From contig NZ_CP011509.1 of the NCBI RefSeq assembly GCF_001027285.1, positions 5,418,501 through 5,482,500 of the forward strand: a stretch of 64,000 nucleotides of DNA. The letters run 5' to 3'. The DNA is from Archangium gephyra (GTDB taxonomy: Bacteria > Myxococcota > Myxococcia > Myxococcales > Myxococcaceae). Below, piece by piece: positions 11,861 to 32,251 of this stretch. The translations under genes and the position numbers were made by a program. A model generated the notes under the pieces. It searched no databases. It was not told the DNA's origin and saw only the letters and a list, made by a program, of their open reading frames with translations. Numbering within the stretch: position 1 is the stretch's first letter; each line of letters begins with the position of its first letter.

Positions 11861-12532
11861 GTGGCCGAACAAGTACCATTTGGAGCCTTGTCATTCGCAG
11901 AGAACCCGGAGCCGCGCTGCCCGTGCGTGCTGCTGCTGGACACCTCCGGGTCCATGAATGGGCGCCCCATCGAGGCGCTCAACGCGGGACTGCTCCAGTA
12001 CCGTGACGAGCTGGCCGCCGACAGCCTCGCCTCCAAGCGGGTGGAGGTGGCCGTGGTCACCTTTGGGGGCCAGGTGCAGACGCTGCACGACTTCTCCACC
12101 GCGGAGGCCTTCTTCCCCACCGCGCTGATGGCCGAGGGCAACACCCCCATGGGTGAGGCCATCCTCCGCGCCACGGACATGCTGTCGGCGCGCAAGAGCC
12201 TCTACCGGCAGAACGGCATCCTCTTCTACCGGCCGTGGATCTTCCTCATCACGGATGGAGGCCCCACGGACGCGTGGCAGGCGGCCGCCGAGCGCGTGCG
12301 CCAGGGCGAGGCCAGCAAGGCCTTCTCCTTCTTCGCCGTGGGCGTGGAGGGGGCCAACCTGGACGTGCTCAAGCAGATCTGCGTGCGCGAGCCGCTCAAG
12401 CTGGACGGGCTGCGCTTCCGCGATTTGTTCCAGTGGCTGTCCAACTCGCAGAAGGCCGTCTCGCGCTCGCAGACGACCGAAGAGGTGCGGCTGGCCAACC
12501 CGGCGGCCCCCGGCGGTTGGGCTTCCGTATAG
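11861..12532 (+). CDS. TerY-like von Willebrand factor A domain protein
   Basis: The 223-residue protein is a single vWA domain. The MIDAS metal site is complete: DTSGSM starting at Asp27, a threonine in the GNTPMGEA segment, and [13 protein letters not shown] start is used. In TerY-P systems a vWA protein of this size is encoded with a PP2C phosphatase and a kinase carrying a helix-hairpin-helix; exactly those two genes follow, at 16 and 3 bases spacing. TerY-like proteins are thought to be a metal-dependent scaffold in a phosphorylation-controlled stress or phage response. This is the first gene of a co-directional run ending with the retron reverse transcriptase. Confidence 0.8.
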
Positions 12533-12548
12533 GACGGGGATTGTCGCG

Positions 12549-13337
12549 ATGTGGAGGTTGCTCCAGCAGTCCCTGGAGGGGACCTCGCACCGGCGCTCGG
12601 CCACGCCCTGCCAGGACAGCTGCGAGGGGACGGCCACGTGCCCCGGGCAGGAGTCCTTCCTGGTGGTGGCCTGTTCGGACGGTGCGGGCAGTGCCGGGCT
12701 GAGCCAGGAGGGCTCGGCGCTGGCGTGCCGGCGTTTCGTGCAGGTGGCCTGTGAGGCGCTCGAGCGCGAGGGCCCGGAGGCCGTGAGGGATCCCGAGCGC
12801 ATCCGTGACTGGTACCGGCAGGTGCGGCGGGCGCTGGAGGAGGAGGCGGCCCGGCGGGAGGTGCCCTTGCGCGAGCTGTCCTGCACGCTGCTGACGGCGG
12901 TGGTGGGCGAGCACACCGCCGTCTTCGCGCAGGTGGGGGACGGCGCCATCGTCGTGCGCGAGGGCGAGGGCTACGTGCCCATCTTCTGGCCGCAGGCGGG
13001 CGAGTACGCCAACACCACGTGGTTCGTCACCTCGGCGGACCTGGAGCAGGTGCTGCAGGTGGCGAGCCGGGAGCCGGTGGACGAGGTGGCCCTGTTCACC
13101 GACGGCTTGCAGATGCTGGCGCTGCACTTCGCCTCGCGCTCGGTGCACCGTCCCTTCTTCGAGCCGCTGTTCACCGCGCTGCGCGGCGCCGCGAATCCGG
13201 AGGATCTGGTGGTGCCGCTGCGCTCGTTCCTGGACTCGCCCGCGGTGAACGAGCGCACGGATGATGACAAGACGCTCGTGCTCGCCGTGCGGGTGGGAGC
13301 CGGAGCGGGGCGCGCGTCCTCGCCAGAGCCCGGGTAG
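12549..13337 (+). CDS. PP2C-family Ser/Thr phosphatase (TerY-P triad)
   Basis: A 262-residue PP2C-type phosphatase. Metal-binding and core motifs in order are ACSDGAGSAG (Asp44), VGDGAIVV, ALFTDGLQ and TDDDKTLVLAV near the C-terminus. The ATG at 12549 is chosen because it precedes the conserved WRLLQQSLEGTSH...CQDS entry seen in triad phosphatases; longer frames run antiparallel to nothing real and overlap the vWA gene. It should remove phosphates placed by the adjacent kinase. The three-base gap to the kinase GTG points to translational coupling. No signal peptide, so cytoplasmic. Confidence 0.8.
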   Translation: MWRLLQQSLEGTSHRRSATPCQDSCEGTATCPGQESFLVVACSDGAGSAGLSQEGSALACRRFVQVACEALEREGPEAVRDPERIRDWYRQVRRALEEEAARREVPLRELSCTLLTAVVGEHTAVFAQVGDGAIVVREGEGYVPIFWPQAGEYANTTWFVTSADLEQVLQVASREPVDEVALFTDGLQMLALHFASRSVHRPFFEPLFTALRGAANPEDLVVPLRSFLDSPAVNERTDDDKTLVLAVRVGAGAGRASSPEPG

Positions 13338-13340
13338 CAC

Positions 13341-15707
13341 GTGTCCCAGCCCGTCCTCTTCAATTCGCGGGGTGAGCGGGTGGCCCTGGGCCCGGAGGTG
13401 GGGCGCGGGGGCGAGGGCGTGGTGTACGTGCTGCCCAGGGATGCCCAGCGCGTGGCGAAGGTGTACCTGACGGCGCCGCCGGCCGAGCAGGGCCAGAAGC
13501 TGGCGTGGATGGCGGCCCATGCGCCGCCGGGCGTGGAGAAGCTGGCGGCCTGGCCGCACGAGGTGCTGCACGAGGGCCGCGCGGGAGGTCCGGTGCGGGG
13601 CTTCACCATGCCCCGGGTGAGCGGCCTCAAGCCCATCCACCTGCTGTACTCCACGGCGAGCCGCCGCAAGGAGTTCCCCACCGCGGACTGGTCCTTCCTC
13701 GTCCAGACGGCGCTCAACTGCGCCAGCGTCTTCGAGGAGTTGCACGCGGTTGGCCACCTGGTGGGGGACGTCAACGAGAGCAACCTGCTGGTGTCGCCGC
13801 GGGACGCCACGGTGCGGCTGATCGACTGCGACTCGTTCCAGATTCGCGCGGACAAGCGGGTGTACCGCTGCGGGGTGGGCGTGCCGCTCTTCACGCCTCC
13901 CGAGCTGCAGGGCCAGGCCTTCGGGGGGCTGGAGCGGACGCCCTCGCACGAGGGCTTCAGCCTGGGGGTGCTGCTCTTCCACCTGCTGTTCCTGGGGCGC
14001 CACCCCTTCACGGGCGTCTTCACGGGGCAGGGGGAGATGACGCCGGAGCGGGCCATCCGCGAGTTCCGCTTCGCCTATGGCCGCAACGCGCGGGCGCTGC
14101 AGATGACGCCGCCGGCCATCCACCTGCCGCTGGAGACGCTGACGCCGGAGCTGGCCCGGCTCTTCGAGGATGCCTTCGCGCCGGACGCCCCGAGGGTGGG
14201 CCGGCCGAGCGCCACCGAGTGGTACCGGGCGCTGCAGGCGCTGGCGCGCTCGCTGCGCAGCTGTGCCCAGGAGCCCACGCACAAGTATCCGCAGCACCTG
14301 CCGTCCTGCCCGTGGTGCCAGATGATGGCCACGCGCGGGGTGGCCTTCTTCGGCTCGCCGCAGAACACGGCACCGGGGCCCCAGGGCTTCACCTGCACCT
14401 TCCAGGAGCTGGAGCCGCTGTGGACGGAGTCGCAACGGCTGCTGGCGCCGAACCTCCTCACGCCCGTGGCGCCTCCGCCGATGCCCGCGCTTCCGGACCG
14501 GCTGCCGGCGGAGCTCCAGGCCGAGGTGGATCGGGTGCGGCAGGCCAGCGTGGCCATGCTGGTGGGTGGGGTGCTCGCCACGGTGGGCTGGTGGGTGGTG
14601 ATGCTGGCCTCCGCCAGGGTGGGCGGCTTGCTGTTGGTGCCGGGCTGCACGCTGTTGGGCAGTGCCTCGGTCGTGTGGTGGCTGAGCCGCAAGCACCAGC
14701 GGCTCCCGGTGGAGGTGGCCGAACAGCAGGGGCTGCTGCGGCAGGCGGAGGGGGCCCTGGCGGCGGCACAGGCCGAGGCCGAGCGCTTCAAGGAAGAGCT
14801 CCAGCGGATGGGGGATCGGGCGCGTCAGCTGCTGCACGGGCTGCGCGCGGAGTACGGCAAGCTGCAACCGGAGTTCGAGGCCGAGCAGCGGCGGCAGCTC
14901 CAGCACCGCGAGGCGATGCAGCGCGAGCAGTTCCTGCGGGGTGCCCTCATCGAGGACCATGAGATCGAGAGCATCAAGCAGGGGTTGAAGTCGAACCTGG
15001 TGCGCTGGGGCATCGAGTCCGCGTACGACGTCCTGAAGGAGGACGTGAGGCAGGTGCCGGGCTTCGGCGAGGTGCGGTCGACACGGCTGATCGCCTGGGC
15101 GAAGGAGGTGGAGAAGGGCTTCCGGTTCGATCCAGGGCTGGCGGTGAGCGAGGCGGAGCGGCGGGCGCTGGTGTCGCACTTCCTGCAGCGCAAGGCGTCG
15201 TTGCGCGCGCGGCTGGAGTCGGAGGTGGCGCCGCTGCGGGCGTGGTCGCGGGAGATGACGAAGCGCTCGGGCGAGCTGGCGGCGAAGCTGGAGGAGGCAC
15301 AGCAGGGGGTGATGCGGGCCACGTTGGGAATGCCCGCGGCGCGGCCGGCGGTGGAGGCGGCGCTGAAGCCTCCGGCGTGGGAGGACCGGCGCGTCCTGCT
15401 GGCCATGGTCCTGGCGGTGATACTGGGAGGCGTGGTGGGACTGGTGAACCGGACCACGGGCACGGAGGAGCCAGTGAAGGGGGCACCGCCTCCCGCGGCG
15501 CAGGCGCCCGAGGAGCCCACCGAGGCGGCGGTGTTGCCGTTGGATTGCCTGGCCCGGGAGGCGGCCACCACCGGAGCGCCGGTGCTGGAGCGGCTGGCGG
15601 CGGGAAGCCGGCTGGAGGTGGTGGAGGAGGAGGGCGGGTGGCGCAAGGTGGTGCTCGCGGGAGGCCGCGAGGGGTGGACGGGCCCAGGTTGCTGGTCTCC
15701 GCCGTGA
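13341..15707 (+). CDS. Membrane-linked protein kinase with helix-hairpin-helix and SH3-like domains (TerY-P triad)
   Basis: The 788-residue product has a divergent kinase domain (about 1-300): glycine loop GRGGEGVVYV, Lys40 in VAKVYL, catalytic loop GDVNESN (Asp143, Asn148) in place of HRDxKxxN, and DCDS (162-165) in place of DFG. A CPWC zinc-knuckle-like motif sits at 323-326. Two hydrophobic spans (403-450) are followed by a charged coiled coil, a helix-hairpin-helix around 555-595 (VRQVPGFGEVRSTRL), a third span near 683-705, and a C-terminal bacterial-SH3-like segment (VLERLAAGSRLEVVEEEGG). This architecture matches YegI-like/TerY-P kinases. HhH segments usually bind DNA, tying phosphorylation to nucleic acid. 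GTG start. Confidence 0.8.
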   Translation: MSQPVLFNSRGERVALGPEVGRGGEGVVYVLPRDAQRVAKVYLTAPPAEQGQKLAWMAAHAPPGVEKLAAWPHEVLHEGRAGGPVRGFTMPRVSGLKPIHLLYSTASRRKEFPTADWSFLVQTALNCASVFEELHAVGHLVGDVNESNLLVSPRDATVRLIDCDSFQIRADKRVYRCGVGVPLFTPPELQGQAFGGLERTPSHEGFSLGVLLFHLLFLGRHPFTGVFTGQGEMTPERAIREFRFAYGRNARALQMTPPAIHLPLETLTPELARLFEDAFAPDAPRVGRPSATEWYRALQALARSLRSCAQEPTHKYPQHLPSCPWCQMMATRGVAFFGSPQNTAPGPQGFTCTFQELEPLWTESQRLLAPNLLTPVAPPPMPALPDRLPAELQAEVDRVRQASVAMLVGGVLATVGWWVVMLASARVGGLLLVPGCTLLGSASVVWWLSRKHQRLPVEVAEQQGLLRQAEGALAAAQAEAERFKEELQRMGDRARQLLHGLRAEYGKLQPEFEAEQRRQLQHREAMQREQFLRGALIEDHEIESIKQGLKSNLVRWGIESAYDVLKEDVRQVPGFGEVRSTRLIAWAKEVEKGFRFDPGLAVSEAERRALVSHFLQRKASLRARLESEVAPLRAWSREMTKRSGELAAKLEEAQQGVMRATLGMPAARPAVEAALKPPAWEDRRVLLAMVLAVILGGVVGLVNRTTGTEEPVKGAPPPAAQAPEEPTEAAVLPLDCLAREAATTGAPVLERLAAGSRLEVVEEEGGWRKVVLAGGREGWTGPGCWSPP

Positions 15708-15741: not shown

Positions 15742-17634
15742 GTGGAGACTCCGCAGCAACGGTGGTTACGGGAGAGCCGCGAGGTGGAGCAGGCCCTGCG
15801 GGGCCTCTTCGCGATGGACCTGGATGATGGACAGCTGCGGCAGGGCATGGAGGAGATGGCCACGCGCTGGCCCTTCCCGGGGCTGATCGCCCTGTGGGGT
15901 CCCGGGCTCTACTACCGCAACCGCACCGTCTTCCGGCCCTTCATCCTCGCCCGCTTCCCGCAGTTCACCTTCGATACGCAAGGCCGCCCCCAGTCCGTGT
16001 TCAAGGGGCCCTCCGCGGAGCTCTTCGAGCGGTGGCTCCAGGACGTCGATCGCTCCGGAGACGTGGAGCTGTTCCGCCGGTTGTACCGGCTCCAGTTGCA
16101 GGACCTTGCCTGGGAGGCACGCGGCAAGCGCTGGCGCGAGGATCTGCTGGCCCGCTACGGCGCGGCCTCCACCCGGGCCCAGCGCCAGCGCGTGCTGAAC
16201 CAGTTCGATCTTTTGTTCGAGCTCGACGAGCCGGCGGCCATCACCCTCTACACCGCGGATTCCGTGGTCTCGCGCGGCTTCATCCTCGCGCACCTGCCCT
16301 GGGGACTGTGGTACGGCTCCAGTCGGCGCTCCCCCTGGCAGAAGCTGCCCGCCCTGGCGCGGGAGCGCGGTGATGAGGCACTCGCCCTCGACGTCTACCG
16401 CCGGCAGGTGTCCGAGGACACCTGGAAGCTGGACGTGCTGGCGCTGTGCGACAGCGTCCGCGAGCCTGGAGCGTTGGTGGAGGCGCTCGAGCAGCGGCAC
16501 CCGGCGCAATGGCTCAAGGACGCGGCCACGACGTTCCTCGCACTCGCCAGCAAGCGCGGCCGGGATGTCGTGCCCTACCTGCTGCGCCACGTGCGCGACG
16601 TGCGCCAGCCCTGGCTCCCCCTGAACCGGAGCTTCGCCCAGCTGGTGGAGCTGGCGCGCGAGCGGGAATGGTTGGACCTGTGGTCCGCGCTGATGTGCAC
16701 CTCAGCGACTCCCGACACCTATGACCACGAGGTGCTCGGCCTCCTCCAGCGCTCGCGGTTGCCCGAGGACGAGGTCCAGAGACGTCTCCTCCTGCTCGCG
16801 GGAGTAGGCAGGGAGCTCAACTTCCCCGGTCTTGGCCTCGTCCAGGTGCAGCCGCTCAAGGACGAGACGGCGGTGCTGCTGTACGAGCGCTTCCCGGACC
16901 TCGTACGTGGCCCCTTCCTGCGGCACGTCTCTCCCGGCCGGAGTGGCACCTATCCGAAGCTCACCACCCGGGCCATCAAGCTGGAGGACGCACCGCTGGT
17001 GGACTACCTCGCCAGCCGCGTGGCGCTCCAGAGCGTCTGGTACGGCGCTTCAAAGCAGCCCACTCCATGGGCCGAGGTCATCGATCGGCTCTCGGCCTCC
17101 TACGAGGCGTTGCTGGCACGCTCGCCCGAGGCATTCGTGTCCCGGGCGGCCACCGTGCTGGGGAAGATGCCGGCCTTCGCCATCGGCAACTACGGCCTGT
17201 TGGTCCGCCACAACCGGCTGGCGCGGCTCCTCTTCGAACGGGCCCATGCGCACTACGCGGCGGATGCACGCGCGATGAGGGATCTGCTCGAGTCACCGCA
17301 GATCCACGTGCAGGCGCTCGCTTTCCGGGTGCTCGGACGGGATGACGAGCGGGCCCGCACCCTGGCCGCGCGGAACGTGGATCTGCTCCAGGCCACCCTC
17401 CTGCGTCCCCTGCATCGCAAGACGCGGCTGATGGCCCTGGGCGCCCTGCGCAACGCCGCCCGGGACGAGGCCGCCGCGCGTCAGCTCGTGGGCCGCATCC
17501 GGGATGCCCTGGACCTGCCGGACCGGCGGTACCCGAAGGAGGCGCTGCTCGGGTTGCTCGCCGACATCCTCCACCGCTGGCCCGCCTTGCGAGGCCCCTC
17601 CGAGCAGCCGGTGGTGTACGGAGGTGCCGCGTGA
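15742..17634 (+). CDS. Helical-repeat (ARM/HEAT-like) protein of type XIII retron
   Basis: A 630-residue protein made almost entirely of amphipathic helices with recurring L-x-x-L and ALxxxARERG-type patterns, consistent with ARM/HEAT-like repeats; no catalytic motif or membrane span is visible. The GTG start is supported by GGAGGGAG just upstream. Its stop overlaps the next start as GTGA, indicating coupled translation. From memory of the published retron classification, type XIII systems combine an ARM-repeat protein with a winged-helix/SWIM protein and the RT, which is the order found here. It is probably an effector or scaffold partner, but its activity is unknown. Confidence 0.7.
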   Translation: METPQQRWLRESREVEQALRGLFAMDLDDGQLRQGMEEMATRWPFPGLIALWGPGLYYRNRTVFRPFILARFPQFTFDTQGRPQSVFKGPSAELFERWLQDVDRSGDVELFRRLYRLQLQDLAWEARGKRWREDLLARYGAASTRAQRQRVLNQFDLLFELDEPAAITLYTADSVVSRGFILAHLPWGLWYGSSRRSPWQKLPALARERGDEALALDVYRRQVSEDTWKLDVLALCDSVREPGALVEALEQRHPAQWLKDAATTFLALASKRGRDVVPYLLRHVRDVRQPWLPLNRSFAQLVELAREREWLDLWSALMCTSATPDTYDHEVLGLLQRSRLPEDEVQRRLLLLAGVGRELNFPGLGLVQVQPLKDETAVLLYERFPDLVRGPFLRHVSPGRSGTYPKLTTRAIKLEDAPLVDYLASRVALQSVWYGASKQPTPWAEVIDRLSASYEALLARSPEAFVSRAATVLGKMPAFAIGNYGLLVRHNRLARLLFERAHAHYAADARAMRDLLESPQIHVQALAFRVLGRDDERARTLAARNVDLLQATLLRPLHRKTRLMALGALRNAARDEAAARQLVGRIRDALDLPDRRYPKEALLGLLADILHRWPALRGPSEQPVVYGGAA

Positions 17635-19244
17635 TTCCGCTCATCTTCGACTACGCCATTCCCAGTGCCTTCACCTCGGACCGGGAGCGCGCGCAGCTCG
17701 GCCTGTCTCCCAACCTCCGCCGCCCGCTGCGCTTCCACGGCCGCATCCGCGAGCACGTCCTCTCCGTGAGGCTCGCGCTCCAGGCGCTTGGCGAGCTCAT
17801 CTGGTCCGATGACTCCTGGGCCTCGACGGACGAATACCTCTGGGGCGTGCTCGATCCGGTCGTCACCGTCCACCGCGACCGCGTCTTCTTCGAGGCCTTC
17901 AGCCAGGACCAGAGCGCCTACGGCCTGGTCATCGTCGATCGGGGGCTGTTCGAGACGGAAGGGGAGGTGGAGTGCGGCACCACGAACGTCGACTTCACGG
18001 CGTGGCTGTGGGCGGCGCTGGGGGAGATGCGCTCCTCGCGAGACACGTGGTTGCGCATCGAGAATCCCGGCCTCGAGGTGCGCACGGAGGGCGCCGGAGG
18101 CCGCTTCGAGCAGAAGGTGGAGCTGCCGGAAGCGTGGGTACGTGGCTTCCTCCAGCTCCAGGGGGCCATGGCGCTGCCGGGGACGCGGCTCACCGTGCGC
18201 CCGGTGGATCTGGTCGCCGCACTGCGCTTCCTGCGCTTCAGCCATGCGAAGGTATCGCCGCGCGCGCTGCGCTATGTCTTCGAGCCCGGCCAGCCCGCGG
18301 CGCTGGTGCTGGAGCCCTGGGAGGAGCGCATCGTCCTGCGAGGGGCGGAGCACGGCTACGAGGAGCCCCGCACCATCCGCACCTGGGGACGCCGCCGGCT
18401 GCGGCTGCTCGAGCCGTTGCTGCCCTATGCCCACAAGGTGGACGTCTTCCTCAAGGGCCGGGCCCTGCCGAGCTTCTACGCCGTGGAGCTGCCCGGGGTG
18501 ACGTGGGTGCTGGGGCTCACCGGGTGGAGCGGCCAGCGCTTCAGCGGCACGGGGAGCTTCGATCTGCTCACGCCGGACGCGCCGGTGACTCCGGGGCTGA
18601 AGGAGCGGGTGCTCGCCGTGCTGCGCGAGCGGCAGGCCGCCAGTGTGGAGGCCCTGTCGCAGGCGGTGGGGGCGGACAAGCCGGACACGAGCCGGGCGCT
18701 GTTCCACCTGTGCCGGGCGGGCATGACCGTCTTCGATGTGCAGCGCCGCGAGTACCGCCACCGCGAGCTCTTCGAGACACCCGTGGACGAGGCGCGCCTC
18801 TTCCCTCCGGACGCCCGGCGCGAGCGGGCCAACGCGCTGCTCCAGGGGGGCCGGGTGAAGGTGGAGTCCGTCACGCCGCGCGAGACGCGGAAGATCAAGT
18901 GGCTGCGCACACCTGAAGGGACGGAGCGCCGGGAGATCATCCATCGCGACCAGGTGGTGGTGGGCGCGGTCGCGGAGCAATCCCAGGTGGAGCTCGTCCT
19001 GAACGACGAGGAGCGGCTCATCTTCGCCACCTGTGGCTGTGACTTCTTCCTGGAGAACATCCTCAACCAGGGGCCGTGCGAGCACATGCTGGCGCTGCTG
19101 ACGGCGAGCGCGGGAGCACGCCGGGACCTGGCGACCTCGGCCGCCGTGTCGCCGGAGGCCGAGGCGCTGTCGAAGCCTCCCCGTCCCACGGAGGAGGGCG
19201 GGAGCGGAGGAGCCGGAGAGGAGCTTGACGGTGATGAGGGCTAG
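17631..19244 (+). CDS. Winged-helix / SWIM zinc-finger protein of type XIII retron
   Basis: The 537-residue protein has a winged-helix segment at about 322-386 (ERVLAVLRERQAASVEALSQ ... SRALFHLCRAGMTVFDV) and a SWIM zinc finger near the C-terminus: Cys468-x-Cys470, then Cys483-x-His485 (ATCGCDFF ... GPCEHM). The N-terminal 300 residues are not recognised. Both domains bind nucleic acid or protein partners. Its GTG start overlaps the ARM gene stop by four bases, and the retron RNA begins 19 bases after its stop. This fits the WHSWIM component of type XIII retrons, whose best-known members are the myxobacterial Mx162/Sa163-type elements. It may recognise the msDNA; that is inference. Confidence 0.75.
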   Translation: MIPLIFDYAIPSAFTSDRERAQLGLSPNLRRPLRFHGRIREHVLSVRLALQALGELIWSDDSWASTDEYLWGVLDPVVTVHRDRVFFEAFSQDQSAYGLVIVDRGLFETEGEVECGTTNVDFTAWLWAALGEMRSSRDTWLRIENPGLEVRTEGAGGRFEQKVELPEAWVRGFLQLQGAMALPGTRLTVRPVDLVAALRFLRFSHAKVSPRALRYVFEPGQPAALVLEPWEERIVLRGAEHGYEEPRTIRTWGRRRLRLLEPLLPYAHKVDVFLKGRALPSFYAVELPGVTWVLGLTGWSGQRFSGTGSFDLLTPDAPVTPGLKERVLAVLRERQAASVEALSQAVGADKPDTSRALFHLCRAGMTVFDVQRREYRHRELFETPVDEARLFPPDARRERANALLQGGRVKVESVTPRETRKIKWLRTPEGTERREIIHRDQVVVGAVAEQSQVELVLNDEERLIFATCGCDFFLENILNQGPCEHMLALLTASAGARRDLATSAAVSPEAEALSKPPRPTEEGGSGGAGEELDGDEG

Positions 19245-19263
19245 GACGATAAGGACCGTGCTT

Positions 19264-19426
19264 CATCCGAGGGAGCCGTTCGCCCGGGAGTCAGCCATTC
19301 GTGCCGTGGTGTTTCGCCGCGGCGGTGTCATGTTGCCTTCACCTCGCCACGGGACCCACCGTACGGAACGGTGGGACCCATGGGTCCAGAGCTTCGAGAG
19401 TGACGCGCGACCGGCTCCCTCGGATG
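19264..19426 (+). ncRNA. Retron msr-msd non-coding RNA
   Basis: The 212-bp gap between the SWIM gene and the RT holds the expected retron RNA. A 15-base perfect inverted repeat, CATCCGAGGGAGCCG at 19264-19278 and CGGCTCCCTCGGATG at 19412-19426, forms the a1/a2 stem and extends by TCGC after one mismatch. Just after a1 comes TCAGCC, where the branching guanosine (AGC) would lie. Inside are a GCCGTGG/CCGCGGC hairpin (msr-like), a perfect 8-bp stem CCCACCGT/ACGGTGGG at 19355-19375 and the palindrome GGACCCATGGGTCC at 19374-19387 (msd-like). The RT would reverse-transcribe the msd part into branched msDNA. Exact ends of msDNA cannot be fixed by eye. Confidence 0.8.
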
Positions 19427-19456
19427 CAGGCGTTCGCGCCAGAGGAGGGGAGTGCC

Positions 19457-20724
19457 ATGGGCTTCGTTGATTGGCTCAAGGGGCTCTTCCGTCCCAAGCC
19501 GCTGATGCGGGACGTCTCGAGGCTGGATCGGGAGGGCGGCTCGCTCGATGCGGTGCAGGAGGAGGTGAGGCCCGAGTCCGGCCCCCTCAAGCCGGGCCAC
19601 CTTCGTACGGTCCGGAGGGATCCCCGGCTGCTGCCCAAGCCGAAGCCGAAGACGCCGCTGCGCGGGAAGCGCAAGAAGTGGATGGCGGCGAGTGAGTCCC
19701 GCCGGCTGTTCGCCGGGACGCTGCGCACGCGCAACCGGCACATCAGCGATCTGCTCCCGGACGAGGCGCAGCTGCAGCGGCTCGGCCTTCCGGTGTGGCG
19801 GGACGAGGGAGAGGTGGCCGTGGCGCTGGGCGTCTCCGTGAAGGAGCTGCGCTTCTTCTCCATCCACCGCGAGGCCGAGCGCGCTCCGCACTACGTCAGC
19901 TTCTCCATTCCCAAGCGCAACGGGGGGCGGCGGCTCATCATGGCGCCCAAGCGCCGGTTGAAGGCGTTGCAGCGCAAGCTCCTGCCGCTGCTGGTGGACA
20001 AGCTGCCGGTGAGCGGACATGCGCACGGCTTCCGGGCGGGGCGCTCCATTCGCACCGGAGCCGAGCCCCACGTGGGCAAGGCCGTGGTGTTGAAGATGGA
20101 CCTCGCCGACTTCTTTCCCTCCGTCACGTACGTGCGGGTGCGCGGCCTGCTGATCGCGCTGGGCTATGGCTACACGGTGGCGGCCACGCTGGCCGCGCTG
20201 ATGACGGAGGCCGAGCGCCAGCCGGTGGAGGTGAACGGTGTGCGGCTGCACGTGCCGGTAGGTCCGCGCGCCTGTGTGCAGGGGGCTCCGACGAGCCCGG
20301 GCCTGTGCAACGCGGTGGTGAGGCGATTGGACCTGCGGCTCGCGGGGCTCGCGCGCAAGCACGGCTTCTCCTTCACGCGCTACGCGGATGACCTGTGTTT
20401 CTCGGGGGCTCATTGGAGGCGTTGAAGGATCTGCGCGCCGGGGCGAAGCGCCTCATCGAGACCGAGGGCTTCCGGGTGAACGAGGCCAAGACGCGAGTGG
20501 CCCGGCGGGGACGCCGACAGCAGGTGACGGGGGTGGTGGTGAACGAGACGCTCGGCCTGTCGCGCCAGGAGCGCCGGAAGTTGCGCGCCGCCATCCACCA
20601 GGCCCGGAAGGAGGGCGCCCCCCCCGAGGCCGCGGCTCGCATCGAGGGCAAGCTGGCCTACCTCTCCATGCTCAACCCCGAGCAGGCCGCCGTCCTGCGC
20701 AAGCGGTGGAAGCCGTCCAGGTAG
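19457..20724 (+). pseudogene. Retron reverse transcriptase, interrupted by a one-base frameshift after YADD
   Basis: ATG at 19457 follows GGAGGGG. Frame one gives a basic N-terminal extension and the RT palm: FSIPKRNGGRRLIMAPKRRL, VVLKMDLADFFPSVTYVRVR, QGAPTSPGLCN and the catalytic RYADDLCFSG (YADD at 309-312), then stops at 20425. The missing thumb continues in another frame to 20724, including the retron VTG motif (QQVTGVVVNETLGLSRQ) and ending RKRWKPSR. The switch falls at a run of five G (20404-20408); one extra G restores CFSGGSLEALKDL and a 422-residue protein. Either the gene is inactivated, slips at the G run, or the base was lost in sequencing. The RT should prime from the msr-msd RNA directly upstream. 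Confidence 0.8.
20676..20724 (+). repeat. Original copy of a 49-bp direct repeat (RT 3' end)
   Basis: The last 49 bases of the RT gene, encoding the PEQAAVLRKRWKPSR tail, recur at 23136-23184 with only two mismatches. The repeat brackets the first toxin-immunity unit and records a tandem duplication. Confidence 0.85.
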
Positions 20725-20741: not shown

Positions 20742-21179
20742 TTATCCACTGTAGAGGCCATTCATGAACGACGCGAAATCGTCTGCGACGGGGTGGATGG
20801 ACATCTCCACTGTCACCAGGACAACCCTGGGCTGCTCTGGTGAGTTCCTGTAGTCGAAGCACAAATACTCACCGCCGGGAGTGAGGGCAAAGGGAGAAAT
20901 CCCCACTGGAACATGCGGCTCCAGTATGCGATGCGCCTCGTTGACGGAGTACGCTTTCTTTTCGCTCTCAGCGCTGACGATCAACAAGACACTGAACGCG
21001 TCATTGCCTGTACCGACATTGAAGGCACAAGGCTCTGGTCCCATGCCCTGGTATGTGGTGACGAGTTCCCTGTACAAATCAGGTAGCTTGACCTTCCACT
21101 GCTGCTCGAGCCGGTCGAGCATCTGTGAGTCCACCGGATGGGGTTCGGTCCACAAGTAGGGAACCCATTGGATCTTCAT
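20742..21179 (-). CDS. SMI1/KNR4-family immunity protein (first of three)
   Basis: A 145-residue SMI1/KNR4-type protein: PHPVDSQMLDRLEQQWKVKL with LPDLYRELVTTYQGMGP, followed by GGEYLCFDYR and VEMSIHPVADDFASFMNGL, the recurrent pattern of this superfamily. SMI1 proteins neutralise nuclease toxins by direct binding in the cytoplasm. It lies six bases downstream of a second SMI1 gene, and a third copy follows the duplicated toxin. Base composition is lower in GC than the surrounding operons. Being farther from the toxin than its sibling, it may be an orphan immunity gene kept against a toxin variant of rival strains. Confidence 0.8.
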   Translation of the reverse strand: MKIQWVPYLWTEPHPVDSQMLDRLEQQWKVKLPDLYRELVTTYQGMGPEPCAFNVGTGNDAFSVLLIVSAESEKKAYSVNEAHRILEPHVPVGISPFALTPGGEYLCFDYRNSPEQPRVVLVTVEMSIHPVADDFASFMNGLYSG

Positions 21180-21185
21180 GGCTAC

Positions 21186-21620
21186 CTAGTCATGCAACTT
21201 CTCCAGGAACTCGGAGAAGCTGTTCGCAACGGGGTAGATGTCCATCTCGACGGTGATGAGAACGATTCCTGGCTGGCTCGGAGTGTCTCTGTAATCGAAG
21301 CATATGTATTCGCCGCTGCCGGTCAGGGCGAAAGGATAGACGCCAAGCGGCGTGTGAGGCTTCAAGAGGTCGTGCGCATCCCGTATGGAATAGGCGCGAC
21401 TCGATTCATCCTCGCTGATGGTCAAGAAGGCACATATGGAAGAATCGCCTCTGCCAACATCGATGATGTGCGGATTGGGAGTCATTCCCTGATGAATGGA
21501 GACGACGCTCCTGTATTCGTCGGGAAGTGACACGCTCCACTGTCGTTCAAGTACTTCGAGCGCTCCTGGTGGTACTGGATGCGGTGCGTCCCAGACGTAG
21601 GGTTCCCAGGAAATCTTCAT
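21186..21620 (-). CDS. SMI1/KNR4-family immunity protein paired with toxin copy 1
   Basis: The 144-residue product is an SMI1/KNR4 protein (ALEVLERQWSVSLPDEYRSV, SGEYICFDYRDTPSQPG, MDIYPVANSFSEFLEKL). ATG at 21620 is preferred over a start seven codons earlier because its ATGA overlaps the toxin stop by four bases, showing translational coupling to that toxin. It is therefore the presumptive cognate immunity protein for the WHH nuclease encoded immediately upstream. It resembles the SMI1 proteins at 20742 and 23214 but is clearly diverged from both. Confidence 0.85.
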   Translation of the reverse strand: MKISWEPYVWDAPHPVPPGALEVLERQWSVSLPDEYRSVVSIHQGMTPNPHIIDVGRGDSSICAFLTISEDESSRAYSIRDAHDLLKPHTPLGVYPFALTGSGEYICFDYRDTPSQPGIVLITVEMDIYPVANSFSEFLEKLHD

Positions 21621-23092
21621 GGTGAATAGCCTCCACCCCATATGGCCATCCCACCTGTATTCGGGGTGGCAAGTCGATGCTCCTCGCGTAGGACCAACTG
21701 CATCCTTCCAACGTCTTGATGGTGATGCCAGGTATAGCGGCTCGGGGGGAGGTCCGATTTCAAGAGCTTGGATACATCCGACTGGCTCAAGCCGAGCTCC
21801 TTCGCGAGATTGGGGGCCCGCTCGATTGCCCGGTACATATTCGTATTGGCTGCGCGTTGATGTGCCGAGGACTTGCCGCTGCCTATGTGGACGTCGTCTA
21901 GGATGGTTTCGAACCTCGAATGGAACTCGGGAAACCCATCCTTGTCGAAGCGAATCGTGTGCTTGCCGTCCGTGATACTTTGCCCAGCCCGGTTACGGCC
22001 CAGGTTCGTGATGGGCGTGGGCGGATTCCTGGTGCCTTGGTAGGGCAGGATCTTCCCATCCTCGGTGAACCTCGGTTTGCGCCAGGACTCGATGGTCGGC
22101 GGGTGGTACTTGCTCGGAGCCTGTCCGCCCCCATCCGTCCCCTGAGAGGCCATGGCGAGGGCTCCCGGAGCCAGCGTGAGGGTAATGCTGCCCTGGCCCA
22201 CCAGCACCTGCCGCACCTGACCCACTGCCGCCAGCTCCAGGCTCAACTGAGTCCTGGCCATGAGGGAGGCCTGCGCATGGCCCGGCAGCCGCGGCCCTTT
22301 CATGAGCAGGTTCGTTGTCGAGCCGAGGGCGGCCGTGGCCAGCATCACCAGCAGGCGCCCCACCTGCGCGCCCATCACCCGGCCGAAGCGCTCACCGGCC
22401 TCGCGCACCTCGGCGAAGGTGCGCGCTTGCTGGGTCTCCAGCTCCAACTGCCTCCAGCCCTGGAGCAGGCTCCACACCGTGTCCACGCCCAGCCAGGCCA
22501 CCATGAGGCAGCCGAAGGAGACGGCGGCCGCCTGCGTCACCGGATTGGGAAACGCCAGCATGGCGAGATAGCCAGCCATGGCGGACATCACCATGGACTG
22601 CAAGGCCACCGGGTCCACCATGCTGGCCCAGACATCCACGGAGCCTTCCCAGACCGAGCCCAGGGCGATGGTGAGTGCCAGCGTTCGTCGTGCCTCGGCC
22701 CCCAGGGAAGGCATGTTGCCCAGCAGCGACAGACAGTCGCCCGGGGTGCCCCGGCGCTCGCACCAGAACTGATAGCCCCGTGTCAGAGCCGTGCCCGCCT
22801 CCTCCTGCCCGGACTGGCCGCAGGCGGTGAGCGCCAGCCGATGGCGGGAAGGGGAGGGGAGCTCCAATCCGGCCACCAGCCGAGCCATGGCCGAGTCGAA
22901 CTGCTCCGGCGTCACCTTCACGGGCATTGCACGCGGAGGGACGAAGGTCCGCAGGGGGCCTTCCTCCGTCTCCAGTCGGACCTGGACGCGGCTGTGAGGG
23001 CCGGGAACGGATCCGGCCACCGGTGTCCCATCCGTTGCGCAGGCGGCCAGCAGCAGGCTCGCCACCAACAGGCGTCCCGCCACCTGGCTCAT
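21617..23092 (-). CDS. SitA-like lipoprotein polymorphic toxin with WHH nuclease tip, copy 1
   Basis: The 491-residue protein starts with a lipoprotein signal, QVAGRLLVASLLLAAC (lipid Cys18). A middle region has hydrophobic helices (LAMLAFPNPVTQAAAVSFGC, LLVMLATAALGS) and then a C-terminal HNH/EndoVII-superfamily nuclease of WHH type: YTWHHHQD (WHH at 455-457) with GRMQLV and TPNTGGMAIWGGG. ATG at 23092 follows AGGAG by ten bases. In Myxococcus, SitA lipoprotein toxins pass between kin by outer-membrane exchange and kill cells lacking the SitI partner; this layout and the coupled SMI1 gene fit that model. The first three quarters are nearly identical to copy 2. Confidence 0.85.
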   Translation of the reverse strand: MSQVAGRLLVASLLLAACATDGTPVAGSVPGPHSRVQVRLETEEGPLRTFVPPRAMPVKVTPEQFDSAMARLVAGLELPSPSRHRLALTACGQSGQEEAGTALTRGYQFWCERRGTPGDCLSLLGNMPSLGAEARRTLALTIALGSVWEGSVDVWASMVDPVALQSMVMSAMAGYLAMLAFPNPVTQAAAVSFGCLMVAWLGVDTVWSLLQGWRQLELETQQARTFAEVREAGERFGRVMGAQVGRLLVMLATAALGSTTNLLMKGPRLPGHAQASLMARTQLSLELAAVGQVRQVLVGQGSITLTLAPGALAMASQGTDGGGQAPSKYHPPTIESWRKPRFTEDGKILPYQGTRNPPTPITNLGRNRAGQSITDGKHTIRFDKDGFPEFHSRFETILDDVHIGSGKSSAHQRAANTNMYRAIERAPNLAKELGLSQSDVSKLLKSDLPPSRYTWHHHQDVGRMQLVLREEHRLATPNTGGMAIWGGGYSP

Positions 23093-23134
23093 TCCGACGA
23101 TGCTCCTGCGAGGGGGGTCCAGCATGGCGGCACG
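22041..23134 (-). repeat. About 1.1-kb direct repeat, copy 1 (toxin N-terminal region)
   Basis: From 22041 to 23134 the DNA is almost identical to 24087-25192; the only clear length change is 12 bases present in copy 2, which add four residues (TARG) after the lipobox region. Similarity drops sharply downstream of 22041, where the two nuclease tips begin. Confidence 0.9.
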
Positions 23135-23135
23135 C

Positions 23136-23184
23136 CCCCGAGCAGGCCGCCGTCCTGCGCAATCGGTGGAAGCCCTCCAGGTAG
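23136..23184 (+). repeat. Duplicated 49-bp RT-gene tail
   Basis: This stretch matches the RT 3' end at 20676-20724 in 47 of 49 bases, with stop codon. It is fused to the sequence just upstream of toxin copy 1 (junction at about 23134) and has no gene body, so it is a scar of tandem duplication rather than a second retron. Confidence 0.85.
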
Positions 23185-23213
23185 GCGCGCCTGCTCCGCC
23201 GGGCATGACGAGA

Positions 23214-23669
23214 TTACGCAGGCGGAGCATCGCCGTCATACAGTCGGGCCATGAAGTCATTGAAGCTGTCCGCTACGGGGTAGATGAACATCTCTACAGT
23301 GACCAGGGTGACCTTGGGCTGCTCCGGTGTCCCTCTGTAGTCGAAGCACAGGTACTCACCACCAGGGGTGCTGGCGAACGGGTAGACGCCATTGGGCACA
23401 TGTGGCTTCACCGCATCATAGGCACGCATGACGGAATATGTGCGCCACTGGGGGTCTTCGATGATCGTCAGGAGCACATTGACGACATTGGTGCCCCTGC
23501 CCACGTTGAAGACAGCGGGATGGGGAGTCATTCCCTGGTACTGGGTGGCTACTTCCTTGTAGGCCTTGGGAAAAGCAATACCCAACAGATGCTCGAGTTG
23601 TTCTATCTCTCTAGACGTAGCTGGATGGGGTTCGTCCCAAACATAGGGTATCCATTTCAGTGTCGTCAT
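23214..23669 (-). CDS. SMI1/KNR4-family immunity protein paired with toxin copy 2
   Basis: A 151-residue SMI1/KNR4 protein (IEQLEHLLGIAFPKAYKEV, TPGGEYLCFDYRGTPEQPK, VEMFIYPVADSFNDFMARL). ATG at 23669 overlaps the toxin copy 2 stop by one base (TGATG), so translation is coupled and this is the presumptive cognate immunity protein. The gene is the third of three paralogues in 3 kb; divergence among them far exceeds that of the toxin N-terminal regions. Confidence 0.85.
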   Translation of the reverse strand: MTTLKWIPYVWDEPHPATSREIEQLEHLLGIAFPKAYKEVATQYQGMTPHPAVFNVGRGTNVVNVLLTIIEDPQWRTYSVMRAYDAVKPHVPNGVYPFASTPGGEYLCFDYRGTPEQPKVTLVTVEMFIYPVADSFNDFMARLYDGDAPPA

Positions 23670-25150
23670 CAATGCCCTCCACCCCAAATTGCCATGCCTC
23701 CCGTATGTGGGCGCGAGAGGATATGCGCTTCTTCTTGTACGAGTTGCATCCTGCAGACGTCTTGATGATGGTGCCAGATGTATCCTCTGGGCGCTCTTTC
23801 CAGAGTCAGGAGTTGCTCGATGCTTGTTTTGCTCAGCCCTAGCTCCTTGGCCAGACCAGGCTCCGACTTGATCGCATCGAAAAGTCTTCGGTTGGCTGCT
23901 CTCATGTGCTGTTCGGAGCGCCCACTGCCAATGTGGATATCATCCAGAATGGTCTCGAACTTCGTATCGAACTCTGCAAATCCATCCTTGTCGAATCGGA
24001 CGTTGTTCTTGCCATCCGTGATGGTTTGTCCGGCCCGGTTGCGGCCCAGGTTCGTGATGGGCTTGGGCGGGTCCCTCGTCCCCTTGTAGGGCAGGATCTT
24101 CCCATCCTCGGTGAACCTCGGTTTGCGCCAGGACTCGATGGTCGGCGGGTGGTACTTGCTCGGAGCCTGTCCGCCCCCATCCGTCCCCTGAGAGGCCATG
24201 GCGAGGGCTCCCGGAGCCAGCGTGAGGGTAATGCTGCCCTGGCCCACCAGCACCTGCCGCACCTGACCCACTGCCGCCAGCTCCAGGCTCAACTGAGTCC
24301 TGGCCATGAGGGAGGCCTGCGCATGGCCCGGCAGCCGCGGCCCTTTCATGAGCAGGTTCGTTGTCGAGCCGAGGGCGGCCGTGGCCAGCATCACCAGCAG
24401 GCGCCCCACCTGCGCGCCCATCACCCGGCCGAAGCGCTCACCGGCCTCGCGCACCTCGGCGAAGGTGCGCGCTTGCTGGGTCTCCAGCTCCAACTGCCTC
24501 CAGCCCTGGAGCAGGCTCCACACCGTGTCCACGCCCAGCCAGGCCACCATGAGGCAGCCGAAGGAGACGGCGGCCGCCTGCGTCACCGGATTGGGAAACG
24601 CCAGCATGGCGAGATAGCCAGCCATGGCGGACATCACCATGGACTGCAAGGCCACCGGGTCCACCATGCTGGCCCAGACATCCACGGAGCCTTCCCAGAC
24701 CGAGCCCAGGGCGATGGTGAGTGCCAGCGTTCGTCGTGCCTCGGCCCCCAGGGAAGGCATGTTGCCCAGCAGCGACAGACAGTCGCCCGGGGTGCCCCGG
24801 CGCTCGCACCAGAACTGATAGCCCCGTGTCAGAGCCGTGCCCGCCTCCTCCTGCCCGGACTGGCCGCAGGCGGTGAGCGCCAGCCGATGGCGGGAAGGGG
24901 AGGGGAGCTCCAATCCGGCCACCAGCCGAGCCATGGCCGAGTCGAACTGCTCCGGCGTCACCTTCACGGGCATTGCACGCGGAGGGACGAAGGTCCGCAG
25001 GGGGCCTTCCTCCGTCTCCAGTCGGACCTGGACGCGGCTGTGAGGACCTCGCGCTGTGCCGGGAACGGATCCGGCCACCGGTGTCCCATCCGTTGCGCAG
25101 GCGGCCAGCAGCAGGCTCGCCACCAACAGGCGTCCCGCCACCTGGCTCAT
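23669..25150 (-). CDS. SitA-like lipoprotein polymorphic toxin with WHH nuclease tip, copy 2
   Basis: A 493-residue paralogue of the 21617-23092 toxin. The lipoprotein signal and middle region are the same apart from a four-residue insertion. The last 125 residues share the fold but differ at many positions, for example LAKELGLSKTSIEQLLTLER. The nuclease motif is YIWHHHQDVCRMQLV (WHH at 459-461); the residue after HHHQDV is Cys466 where copy 1 has Gly. The tip ends PHTGGMAIWGGGH. Its partner SMI1 gene overlaps the stop. A 247-bp gap separates its start from mxcC, transcribed the other way. The two toxins would be delivered by the same route but neutralised by different immunity proteins. Confidence 0.85.
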   Translation of the reverse strand: MSQVAGRLLVASLLLAACATDGTPVAGSVPGTARGPHSRVQVRLETEEGPLRTFVPPRAMPVKVTPEQFDSAMARLVAGLELPSPSRHRLALTACGQSGQEEAGTALTRGYQFWCERRGTPGDCLSLLGNMPSLGAEARRTLALTIALGSVWEGSVDVWASMVDPVALQSMVMSAMAGYLAMLAFPNPVTQAAAVSFGCLMVAWLGVDTVWSLLQGWRQLELETQQARTFAEVREAGERFGRVMGAQVGRLLVMLATAALGSTTNLLMKGPRLPGHAQASLMARTQLSLELAAVGQVRQVLVGQGSITLTLAPGALAMASQGTDGGGQAPSKYHPPTIESWRKPRFTEDGKILPYKGTRDPPKPITNLGRNRAGQTITDGKNNVRFDKDGFAEFDTKFETILDDIHIGSGRSEQHMRAANRRLFDAIKSEPGLAKELGLSKTSIEQLLTLERAPRGYIWHHHQDVCRMQLVQEEAHILSRPHTGGMAIWGGGH

Positions 25151-25192
25151 TCCGAGGATGCTCCTGCGAGGGGTGTCCAGCATGGCGGCGCG
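24087..25192 (-). repeat. About 1.1-kb direct repeat, copy 2 (toxin N-terminal region)
   Basis: Partner of 22041-23134. Homology ends at 25192, where copy 1 changes into the duplicated RT tail, so this end shows the ancestral upstream junction. Confidence 0.9.
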
Positions 25193-25328
25193 GCAGCTTA
25201 CGAGGCTTCCCGCGTCGCCGTGAGCAGCCGCTGGAGGCCACCTCTCACGTCCTGCCATCCAATACAACCGGAGAGGAATGCCTCTTGACTCGGAGTGCCA
25301 GGACATGGCACCACAGCGCCAAGAGAAT

Positions 25329-30043: not shown

Positions 30044-32251
30044 ATGTCCCGGTTCCCCCCTTCGGAGTACCGAGCGATGCACGATCCACAGAATGTCCGC
30101 TGGCCTCTGTCAGCGGCCCAGCACGGAATCTGGCTGGGCCAACAGTTCGACCTCGCGAGCCCGGTGTACAACGCTGGTGAATGCATCGAGCTCCGTGGAC
30201 CCGTCGATCCGGCGCTCTTCGAGGCGGCGGTGCGGCAGGCCGTCTCGGAGGCCGAGGCGCTACACGCGCGCTTCGTGACGGAGGGGCAGGGGGCCGTGCA
30301 GTTCCTCGAGCCGCGGCGGGACTGGACACTTCACGTGGCCGACCTGAGCGGGACTCCAGAGCCGTGGGAGGCGGCGTGGGCGTGGATGCGTGCGGACCTG
30401 GCCCGGCCCGTGGAGCTCAGCCAGGGCCCCCTCTTCGCGCAGGCGCTGTTCAAGGCCGCGCCCGATCGGTTCTTCTGGTACCAGCGGGCCCACCACATCG
30501 CCCTGGATGGTTTCGGCTTCTCGTTGATGGCGAGGCGGGTGGCCGAGCTCTACACCGCGCGGGCGGCTGGACGGCCTGTCACGGGAGGGTTCGGCTCGCT
30601 GCGCGCCGTGCTGGACGAGGACGCGGCCTATCGGGCCGGACCCCAGTTCTCGCTCGACCGGACCTTCTGGATGGAGCGCTTCGCGGACCGGCCCACGCCG
30701 GTGAGCCTCGCGGAGCCCGCGCCCATGTCGGCCAGCTTCGTGCGACAGACGCGCTACCTGCCCCCCAGTGAGGTGGAGCGGCTGCAGGCGGCCGCACGCC
30801 AGGCGGGCCTGAGCTGGTCGGACCTCGTGCTCGCGGCCACGGCGGCCTGGCTGCACCGGCGGACCGATGCGCCCGAGGTGGTGCTCGGGTTGCCGGTGAT
30901 GTCGCGGCTGGGCTCGGCCGCGCTGCGGGTGCCGTGCATGGCGATGAACATCGTTCCCCTGCGGGTGCCCGTGCGTCCGGAGGCCGGGTTGTTCGCCCTG
31001 GCCCGCGAGGTGGCCTCGGAGCTCCGCGCCGTGCGGCCCCATCTGCGCTACCGCTACGAGCAGCTACGGCGGGATCTACGGCTCGTCGGAGGGCAGCGCC
31101 GGTTGTTCGGCCCGGTGGTCAACATCATGCCGTTCGACTACGCGCTGCGCTTCGCGGGCATACCGGCCATCGCGCACAACCTCTCCGCGGGGCCGGTCGA
31201 GGATCTGTCGATCGGTCTGTACGCCCGGTCCGACGGCGGCGGCCTGCGGGTCGACTTCGATGCCAACCCGGCCTGCTACCGCGCCGAGACGCTGGACTCT
31301 CATCAACCCGAGTTTCTCCAGCTCCTGGAGTCGTGGGTCGGTGCGCCCGAGCAGGCGGTGGGCCGCTCCAGGGGTCAGGCTCTGGCCTCGGTGGCACCAG
31401 GGGACAGCGAGCTCGCGTCCGTTCTCGATGGCGGGCCGCTCCCCGTGCCAGCGCGCCCGGTCCTGAATCTGATCACCGAGCGTGCTCACGAGCAGCCCGA
31501 CGCGGTCGCGGTGGAGCACGGCCCGCACCGGCTGAGCTACCGCGAGCTGCTCCAGGCCTCCCACGCGCTGGCGGGCCAGCTCATCGCGGCGGGTGTTCAG
31601 ACGGATACCGCCGTGGCGGTGATGGTTCCACGGAGCATCGATGCGATCGTCGCGACCCTGGGCGTGCTGTTCTCCGGGGCCGGCTACCTGCCGATCGATC
31701 CGTATGGGCCCTCGTCCAGGACCACCGCGATCCTCGAAGACGCCGCGCCCGCGTTGATCATCACCTCTTCCCAGGGCTCGACACCCGGTACCGGACCGGT
31801 GGCCCCGGGTCATCTGGTCGTGAGCAGGAATGAGAAGGCCGCCCCCCGGCAGGACCGTGAGACGACACGGGAGCCGGAGGCGCGACTGGCCTATGTCATC
31901 TACACGTCCGGCTCGACCGGTCAGCCCAATGGCGTGCAGATCTCCCGAGGGGCGTTGGCCCACTTCGTGGCGGGGGCGACGCAGCACTATGGCGTGAACC
32001 GCGAGGACCGGGTGCTTCAGTTCGCGCCGCTGCACTTCGACGCCAGCGTGGAGGAGATCTTCCTGACCCTGTGCGCGGGCGCGAGGCTGGTGCTGCGCAC
32101 CGATGAGATGCTCCAGTCGGTGCCGCGGTTGCTCGGCGCCTGCGCGGGGCATGGCATCACCGTGTTGGACCTGCCCACGGCGTTCTGGCACGAGCTGGCC
32201 TACAGCGTGTCGACGGACGCGGCCCGTCTCCCGTCTCCCTCCGCCTGGTGA
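30044..32251 (+). CDS. mxcG: Myxochelin NRPS MxcG, N-terminal part (C domain and first half of A domain)
   Basis: The first 735 codons of the siderophore NRPS: a condensation domain with [29 protein letters not shown] (HHxxxDG) and [11 protein letters not shown]; then adenylation motifs [24 protein letters not shown], and A3 [20 protein letters not shown], through [17 protein letters not shown] (A4). The frame then fails at PSPSAW-stop, within the adenylation core. Start at 30044 or the ATG at 30077 ([16 protein letters not shown]). The following frame resumes the same protein at VIIGGEA, so this is one gene split by a one-base deletion somewhere in 32227-32247, a true mutation or a sequencing error. 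Known MxcG condenses two DHB units with lysine. Confidence 0.8.

Follow-up and report, generated by a model that had tools for sequence, protein, structure and literature searches.

A probable Mx65-type retron msr-msd RNA with solenoid and SWIM partner genes in Archangium gephyra

Analysing a 64-kb window (the whole 64,000-nt stretch of Archangium gephyra DNA to which all positions refer), we find that the 163-nt segment at 19264-19426 is very probably the msr-msd RNA of an Mx65-type retron, whose parts stand in the order solenoid gene, SWIM gene, msr-msd and reverse transcriptase (RT). Priming is predicted at G19294 and would yield an msDNA of ~66 nt, and the components together most likely make up a tripartite phage-defence unit. 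A retron msr-msd RNA had already been proposed here in an initial annotation of the sequence, and this reading is supported by a covariance search, a conserved fold and linkage to the RT.

Outer repeat, covariation and distribution of the RNA

The RNA is bounded by a perfect inverted repeat of 15 bases, CATCCGAGGGAGCCG at 19264-19278 and its exact reverse complement at 19412-19426, separated by a 133-nt spacer, just as the initial annotation described it. These arms supply the complementary 5' and 3' transcript ends by which retrons are recognized. Within the window, this is the only perfect inverted repeat of at least 15 bases with a spacer of 60-400 nt. In 100 dinucleotide shuffles of the window, however, such repeats occurred 0.12 times on average, and at least one was present in 8 shuffles, so that in 64 kb the repeat by itself is only moderately unlikely and constitutes weak proof. 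The case therefore rests on the position before the RT, on conservation and on the fold. As to position, the RNA starts 19 nt past the stop of the SWIM gene and ends 30 nt upstream of the RT start codon (ATG at 19457), i.e., directly before the RT, as had been noted. As to the fold, the 163-nt RNA reaches -93 kcal/mol (z -5.7), and none of 200 shuffles folded equally low. The features of the locus are collected in Table 1.

Table 1. Features of the predicted retron, with positions in the 64-kb window.
Feature	Position	Strand	Basis
Partner protein of 630 aa, all-helical solenoid	15742-17634	+	no PADLOC or Pfam family at E 10; AF2 pLDDT 85; ARM/HEAT-like neighbours
SWIM_XIII partner: predicted PCNA-like clamp fold (34-308), winged helix (~318-372), SWIM zinc finger (468-485)	17631-19244	+	PADLOC SWIM_XIII E 5.5e-150; fold searches; Pfam
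a1 arm of outer stem (5' end of msr)	19264-19278	+	perfect complement of a2; arms co-vary across lineages
5' side of 4-bp branch-adjacent helix	19290-19293	+	pairs with 19401-19404; double changes in 2 of 4 pairs; 92.9% of cells paired, 21 sequences
Predicted priming (branch) guanosine, in CAGC	19294	+	AGCC invariant in 21/21 aligned sequences; GAGC/CAGC priming motifs in the accessible text of PMC6868368
msr hairpin, 9-bp stem and 3-nt loop	19303-19323 (19303-19311/19315-19323)	+	97.4% of cells paired; double changes in 2 pairs; 5 of 9 pairs invariant
Predicted msDNA, ~66 nt	19335-19400	-	homology to 65-nt M. xanthus stretch (msDNA-Mx65 length taken as background); single-hairpin fold, z -2.9
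msd stem-loop, with 8-bp hairpin and most of the 19374-19387 palindrome	19347-19383	+	alignment fold, pair counts, DNA-strand fold
3' side of branch-adjacent helix	19401-19404	+	pair counts; G19400 presumed first templated base, from retron anatomy in the accessible text of PMC6868368
a2 arm of outer stem (3' end of msd)	19412-19426	+	perfect complement of a1; arms co-vary across lineages
Retron RT, N-terminal 322 aa including YADD; frame breaks afterwards	19457-20425	+	RT_XIII E 1.9e-100; RVT_1
Remainder of RT, other frame	20395-20724	+	RT_XIII E 9e-31, profile 320-421; one base short of both congeners near 20406

Rfam yielded no match in the whole window at gathering thresholds, and at E 5 over 19150-19560 its sole match was an irrelevant snoRNA (E 2.4). 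We searched instead with a covariance model, R1, whose 18 source sequences (14 of them distinct) came from relatives outside the genus; the window was left out, as were its congeners A. violaceum and A. lansinium. On the 64-kb window, R1 matched 19264-19429 at 87.6 bits (E 1.5e-13) and the next-best place scored 18.9 bits, which sets the region far above background in the very search that the initial annotation had called for. On the 12.5-Mb genome, where 150 of the 15105 first-look candidates were scored, no match other than the msr-msd was reported at E 10 or better. R1 also matched M. xanthus AM003 at 189.5 bits, a score to be read with the knowledge that this copy lies outside R1 and near-identical Myxococcus sequences lie inside it; on 27 loci of other retrons, its best score was 23.1 bits (E 0.064, at L013).

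R1 matches occurred in 23 of 195 Myxococcota genomes, and the same 23 hold the 630-aa solenoid protein. A SWIM_XIII search of 145 genomes of the order found the protein in 70; 22 matches, including the window's, reached E 1e-130 or better and began near profile position 93-102, and the other 21 were retrieved, while seven weaker matches (E 4e-56 to 7e-52) that also start at profile position 101-103 lie outside the compared set. The gene order solenoid, SWIM, RT was common to the window and the 20 relatives with which it was compared (21 loci), and the ncRNA could be aligned across all of them. Scanning named genomes for the msr hairpin pattern gave 15 loci, every one of which matches R1 and has SWIM and RT genes beside the RNA (some of them partial at the locus end); the solenoid gene is there in 14, L082 ending at the locus edge. 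Among these loci are M. xanthus AM003, A. violaceum, A. lansinium and the bins L086, L090 and L096. The Mx65 RNA family is hereby defined by covariation, and the same two partner genes accompany the RNA wherever both were sought.

Units of solenoid, SWIM, RNA and RT were thus found in bins named Planctomycetota (L086) and Verrucomicrobia (L090), to which the family is extended, misbinning being possible; L096 comes from a bin named Deltaproteobacteria and is Myxococcota by its tree label. The solenoid gene is apparently frame-split in L086 and is cut by the locus end in L090.

We evaluated the fold of the aligned RNAs through a named structure of 25 pairs. Across the 21 sequences, 93.7% of its cells are paired and seven pairs show double changes; its covariation score of 0.177 was equalled by none of 500 shuffles. 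Slid versions of the structure scored 0.008-0.098 and were 31-50% paired, a comparison that favours the named structure, as it was written after viewing the alignment. Four measures in all were matched in 0 of 500 shuffles each, and a fifth (further pair types) was matched in 124 of 500 and is not above shuffles. Within the msd stem, pairs 95-111 and 96-110 are unpaired in 8 and 5 of the 21 sequences, respectively, and both the RNAalifold structure of R1 and the RNAalifold fold of alignment A4 pair the branch region differently from the 25-pair structure.

Because the distant rows L086, L090, L096 and L125 align poorly in the arms, these were judged by duplex energies. When the a1 and a2 arms of 10 lineages were cross-paired (a 10 x 10 matrix that excludes L125, in which the exact msr pattern is unmatched), cognate pairs averaged -40.8 kcal/mol vs -26.1 kcal/mol for non-cognate pairs, and the cognate partner came first in 9 of the 10 rows and in 8 of the 10 columns. 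Likewise, for 15 distinct arm pairs none of 20000 permutations reached the observed sum, a significance that is inflated by relatedness; in L075 and some Myxococcus rows, the a2 arms of sisters pair equally well as or better than their own. From one lineage to the next, a1 and a2 give way to new sequences that are again complementary.

Predicted branch site and msDNA

The initial annotation held that the branch-point area is pinned down here, but the 15-bp arm does not itself contain the predicted branch point: an internal loop and then a 4-bp helix that covaries separate the arm from a conserved AGC at 19293-19295, with G19294 lying 16 nt past the 5' arm. This guanosine, standing at the end of a stem as expected of a retron, is the likely branch G, given the constancy of AGCC throughout the alignment and the covariation of the adjacent helix, in which G-C is exchanged for C-G between Myxococcus and Archangium.

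A retron RNA, as defined in the accessible text of PMC6868368, further has an msr hairpin of ~7-10 bp with a short loop and a single msd hairpin, and the window has both. They correspond to the two interior hairpins reported earlier, the msr one and an 8-bp stem that we confirmed at 19355-19362/19368-19375. The 14-base palindrome mentioned with them, GGACCCATGGGTCC, is likewise present (19374-19387), but instead of following immediately on the 8-bp hairpin, it overlaps that hairpin's 3' arm by 2 nt. In the alignment of 21 sequences, only the window and A. violaceum have it in perfect form; A. lansinium has an altered version, and the other 18 lack it. The adjoining stems that had been envisaged for the msd give way to a single one: on the DNA strand, the window's msd folds as one hairpin of 8 bp and 7 bp around a T-T mismatch, in which the palindrome-derived CCATGGG pairs with CCCGTGG and lengthens the same stem. 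Folded in the same manner, the homologous 65-nt stretch of M. xanthus gave z -1.6.

We infer an msDNA of ~66 nt by placing the template start at G19400 and the end, by homology to the 65-nt M. xanthus copy, at 19335; so placed, it would overlap a 49-nt RNA (19291-19339) by 5 nt. In the mechanism that we propose, a1 and a2 would pair in the folded transcript and bring the AGC beside the stem end, the RT would recognize the msr hairpin with its 3-nt loop, prime on the 2'-OH of G19294 and copy from ~G19400 back to ~19335. The product would be a branched msDNA, with ~66 nt of DNA on ~49 nt of RNA, its DNA forming one imperfect hairpin.

Of note, just 3' of the msd stem in the RNA (19385-19392), TCCA and the GC that follows it are invariant in all 21 sequences. 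TCCA is unpaired in both the 25-pair structure and the RNAalifold fold, and the following GC is paired in the latter. TCCA may be read by a protein.

Relation to Mx65, Mx162 and type XIII retrons

Mx65 was among the first group of retrons found; its RT has 427 residues and its msDNA consists of 65 nt of DNA and 49 nt of RNA. Homologues of Mx65 in other myxobacteria were reportedly detected in a 1995 survey. M. xanthus AM003 has two retron RT matches at E 1e-15 or better, one of which, orthologous to the window's RT, has 427 codons, GAAPH and a GAGC in its RNA, and the other NALAH and an RNA with CAGC. In the accessible text of PMC6868368, GAGC is the priming motif of Mx65 and CAGC that of Mx162 and Sa163; the Mx65 RT is described there as devoid of the N of NAxxH in region X, and is placed in the same RT group as Mx162/Sa163. 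In a tree that included the first RT part only for the window, the latter fell in a clade of 26 rows (support 100/99), separate from 27 further retron RTs of myxobacteria; inner placements are unsure owing to long branches, including L086, L090, L096 and L125.

By sequence comparison, then, the element is of the Mx65 type (Retron-Mxa2) and not of the Mx162/Sa163 type to which the initial annotation had turned for comparison. It shares with Mx65 an orthologous RT (71% identity over query residues 6-317), an identical gene order, an ncRNA matched by the same model, the replacement of the N of NAxxH (GAEPH in the window, GAAPH in M. xanthus) and a predicted msDNA of nearly equal size. It differs in its primer context, which is CAGC in the window, as well as in A. 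violaceum and A. lansinium, instead of GAGC, a base that varies inside the RT clade (CAGC in L086, TAGC in L090). The letters of a1/a2 also differ, the window's msd stem is one base longer, its RT frame is broken in the assembly, and a kinase-like gene stands upstream, as it does in 3 of 21 loci.

Membership of the Mx162/Sa163 family, which we regard as highly improbable for this RNA, would account for the AGC primer, the GC-rich msr hairpin and the long outer stem, all common to both, and for a primer context identical to that of Mx162. SWIM_XIII genes, too, accompany Mx162-type retrons: in this genome they lie ~5 kb from the RT, and in M. xanthus they are located on its contig. However, a covariance model of the Mx162 type (R3) gave no match at E 10 in the 64-kb window with default filters, and only with filters off, on 301 nt, did it align 19265-19425, at 16.9 bits. 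Mx162-type RNAs of four genomes measure 264-265 nt from arm to arm vs 163 nt in the window, and R1 finds no significant cross-match among them (best 18.4 bits, E 0.42). Moreover, the genome has a separate Mx162-type retron (L023, at C1:856725), the RT of which is 80.5% identical to the M. xanthus one; the window's RT, which has no N of NAxxH, falls with the other of the two M. xanthus RTs. GC-rich hairpins near a gene start that belong to no Rfam family could represent a structured regulatory element, such as a terminator, an attenuator or a mobile repeat, that lies before the RT by chance. Yet chance placement sits poorly with an RNA that is conserved in a sequence-specific way across bins of three phyla, is linked to genes for the RT, the SWIM protein and the solenoid, keeps its AGC invariant where the stem ends and has a single match in the genome; we give this reading hardly any credence.

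With regard to the known types, RT_XIII and SWIM_XIII have strong matches in the window, as in PADLOC retron type XIII, but at E 10 neither WGR_XIII nor HEAT-ARM_XIII recognizes the third protein of the window; the genome's WGR-type copy, by contrast, gives such a match. We place the RNA, on sequence grounds, in the Mx65 family as a further member, with a partner set that the PADLOC type XIII models do not cover. Among the open-licence papers listed, none reported this Archangium RNA. Beyond the window, the genome encodes three further retron RTs, at C1:856725, C1:4534018 and C1:11255135, which are of the Mx162 type, the L026-L030 clade and WGR-type XIII, respectively. The M. xanthus Mx162-type RT groups with L005, L007, L010, L016-L018 and L023-L025. 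RNAs of 230-232 nt (L004, L006, L008, L009, L012, L014, L015, L019 and L020) were considered as Mx162-type and rejected, being WGR-type instead; a WGR-type model, R2, found nothing at 19264-19426, its best score in the window being 7.8 bits, elsewhere.

RT frame, partner proteins and a possible role in defence

Beside the RNA lies a retron-type RT with YADD, both halves of which match RT_XIII, its frame being broken in the assembly. The two close orthologues in the genus, from A. violaceum and A. lansinium, are 92-94% identical and have open frames, and relative to both, the window lacks one base in the G run after YADD. A second gene, at 30077-34407 (its counterparts in the congeners have 1436 and 1466 codons), is also split by a one-base deficit, at ~32234, which is likely another indel error in the window and points to an assembly error as the cause of the RT break. 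Judging by these alignments, an assembly error is the likeliest cause and a recent mutation the next. Taken at face value, the missing base would leave the msr-msd a decayed relic in a strain whose RT is truly broken and which has lost msDNA production, a scenario that we consider possible but unlikely: besides the deficit shared by the second gene, the RNA arms are perfect, and coding constraint looks intact past the break, where codons show 13 synonymous and 2 non-synonymous changes relative to A. violaceum and 18 and 7, respectively, relative to A. lansinium. The constrained downstream frame and the run of five Gs following YADD would also suit programmed frameshifting that completes the RT, but both congeners read through in one frame, so that such a shift would be peculiar to this strain, and we think it very improbable.

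The solenoid protein eludes family models: in PADLOC, three solenoid proteins matched no family at E 10 (HMMER filters drop most matches above ~E 0.1), and in Pfam, the window's protein had no family at E 10 and a Myxococcus homologue had one weak match, to DUF4054 (E 0.067). The structural neighbours of its AF2 model are ARM/HEAT proteins with Z up to 11.8, a value that helical repeats can attain through their shared arrangement.

For the SWIM protein, sequence methods detected nothing beyond a weakly matching winged helix and the SWIM finger, residues C468, C470, C483 and H485 of which are invariant in 15 of 15 members. Its AF2 model (pLDDT 72, pTM 0.76) additionally predicts a PCNA/9-1-1-like clamp fold at residues 34-308. 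In Foldseek, the 50 rows listed all came from sliding clamp entries or complexes (best E 5.4e-8), and in VIA-align, the 50 rows listed had Z 15.9-17.4 and rmsd 2.8-3.2 over 227-257 residues, mostly aligning residues 34-308 of the model with nearly the whole of PCNA. In a viral structure library, too, the neighbours were mostly PCNAs and beta clamps. The predicted likeness to PCNA and 9-1-1 sliding clamps, which form rings and keep replication enzymes on DNA, concerns the fold of this part of this partner protein; identity is 6-13%, and the SWIM protein continues with a winged helix and a SWIM finger. Since sequence methods reveal no clamp relation (Pfam gave no clamp family at E 10, the 5 PDB profile matches included no clamp, and hhalign against 8 DnaN had a probability of 0.3%), the proposed clamp fold rests on a single AF2 model. 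Of the clamp-part helices that we examined, 254-260 alone is strongly basic. Among the open-licence papers listed, the titles and abstract starts mention no clamp fold in a retron protein. The predicted clamp-like partner offers a structural lead that opens the mechanism of type XIII retrons to testing.

In known retrons, according to the accessible text of PMC12548924 and PMC13158370, an RT-msDNA complex is joined by an effector that is released or activated upon phage infection. By analogy, the window's operon is most likely a defence unit, in which a complex of RT and msDNA would act with the solenoid and SWIM proteins as a tripartite system, and the clamp-like model suggests replicating DNA as the target. 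We tentatively extend this to a joint reading, which we hold to be conceivable though doubtful, in which type XIII retrons, including both of those in M. xanthus, would carry a PCNA/9-1-1-like clamp joined to a winged helix and a SWIM zinc finger. The msDNA, with its DNA hairpin, single-strand/double-strand junction and RNA branch, might serve as a decoy primer-template that keeps the clamp silent together with the solenoid adaptor; phage interference with the msDNA would then free the clamp, which would load on replicating DNA and stop replication.

Several genes flank the retron. Upstream lie a vWA-like ORF (11861-12532) and a PP2C-like ORF ending at 13337, both recognized by eye, followed by the kinase-like gene just before the retron (13341-15707), whose product has an SH3 domain. 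The vWA-like, PP2C-like and kinase-like genes (11861-15707) resemble a TerY-P triad. Downstream, on the minus strand (20742-25306), polymorphic toxin cassettes encode two near-identical proteins of the Colicin-DNase/WHH type and SUKH immunity proteins, the second toxin and the third SUKH being assigned by likeness only.
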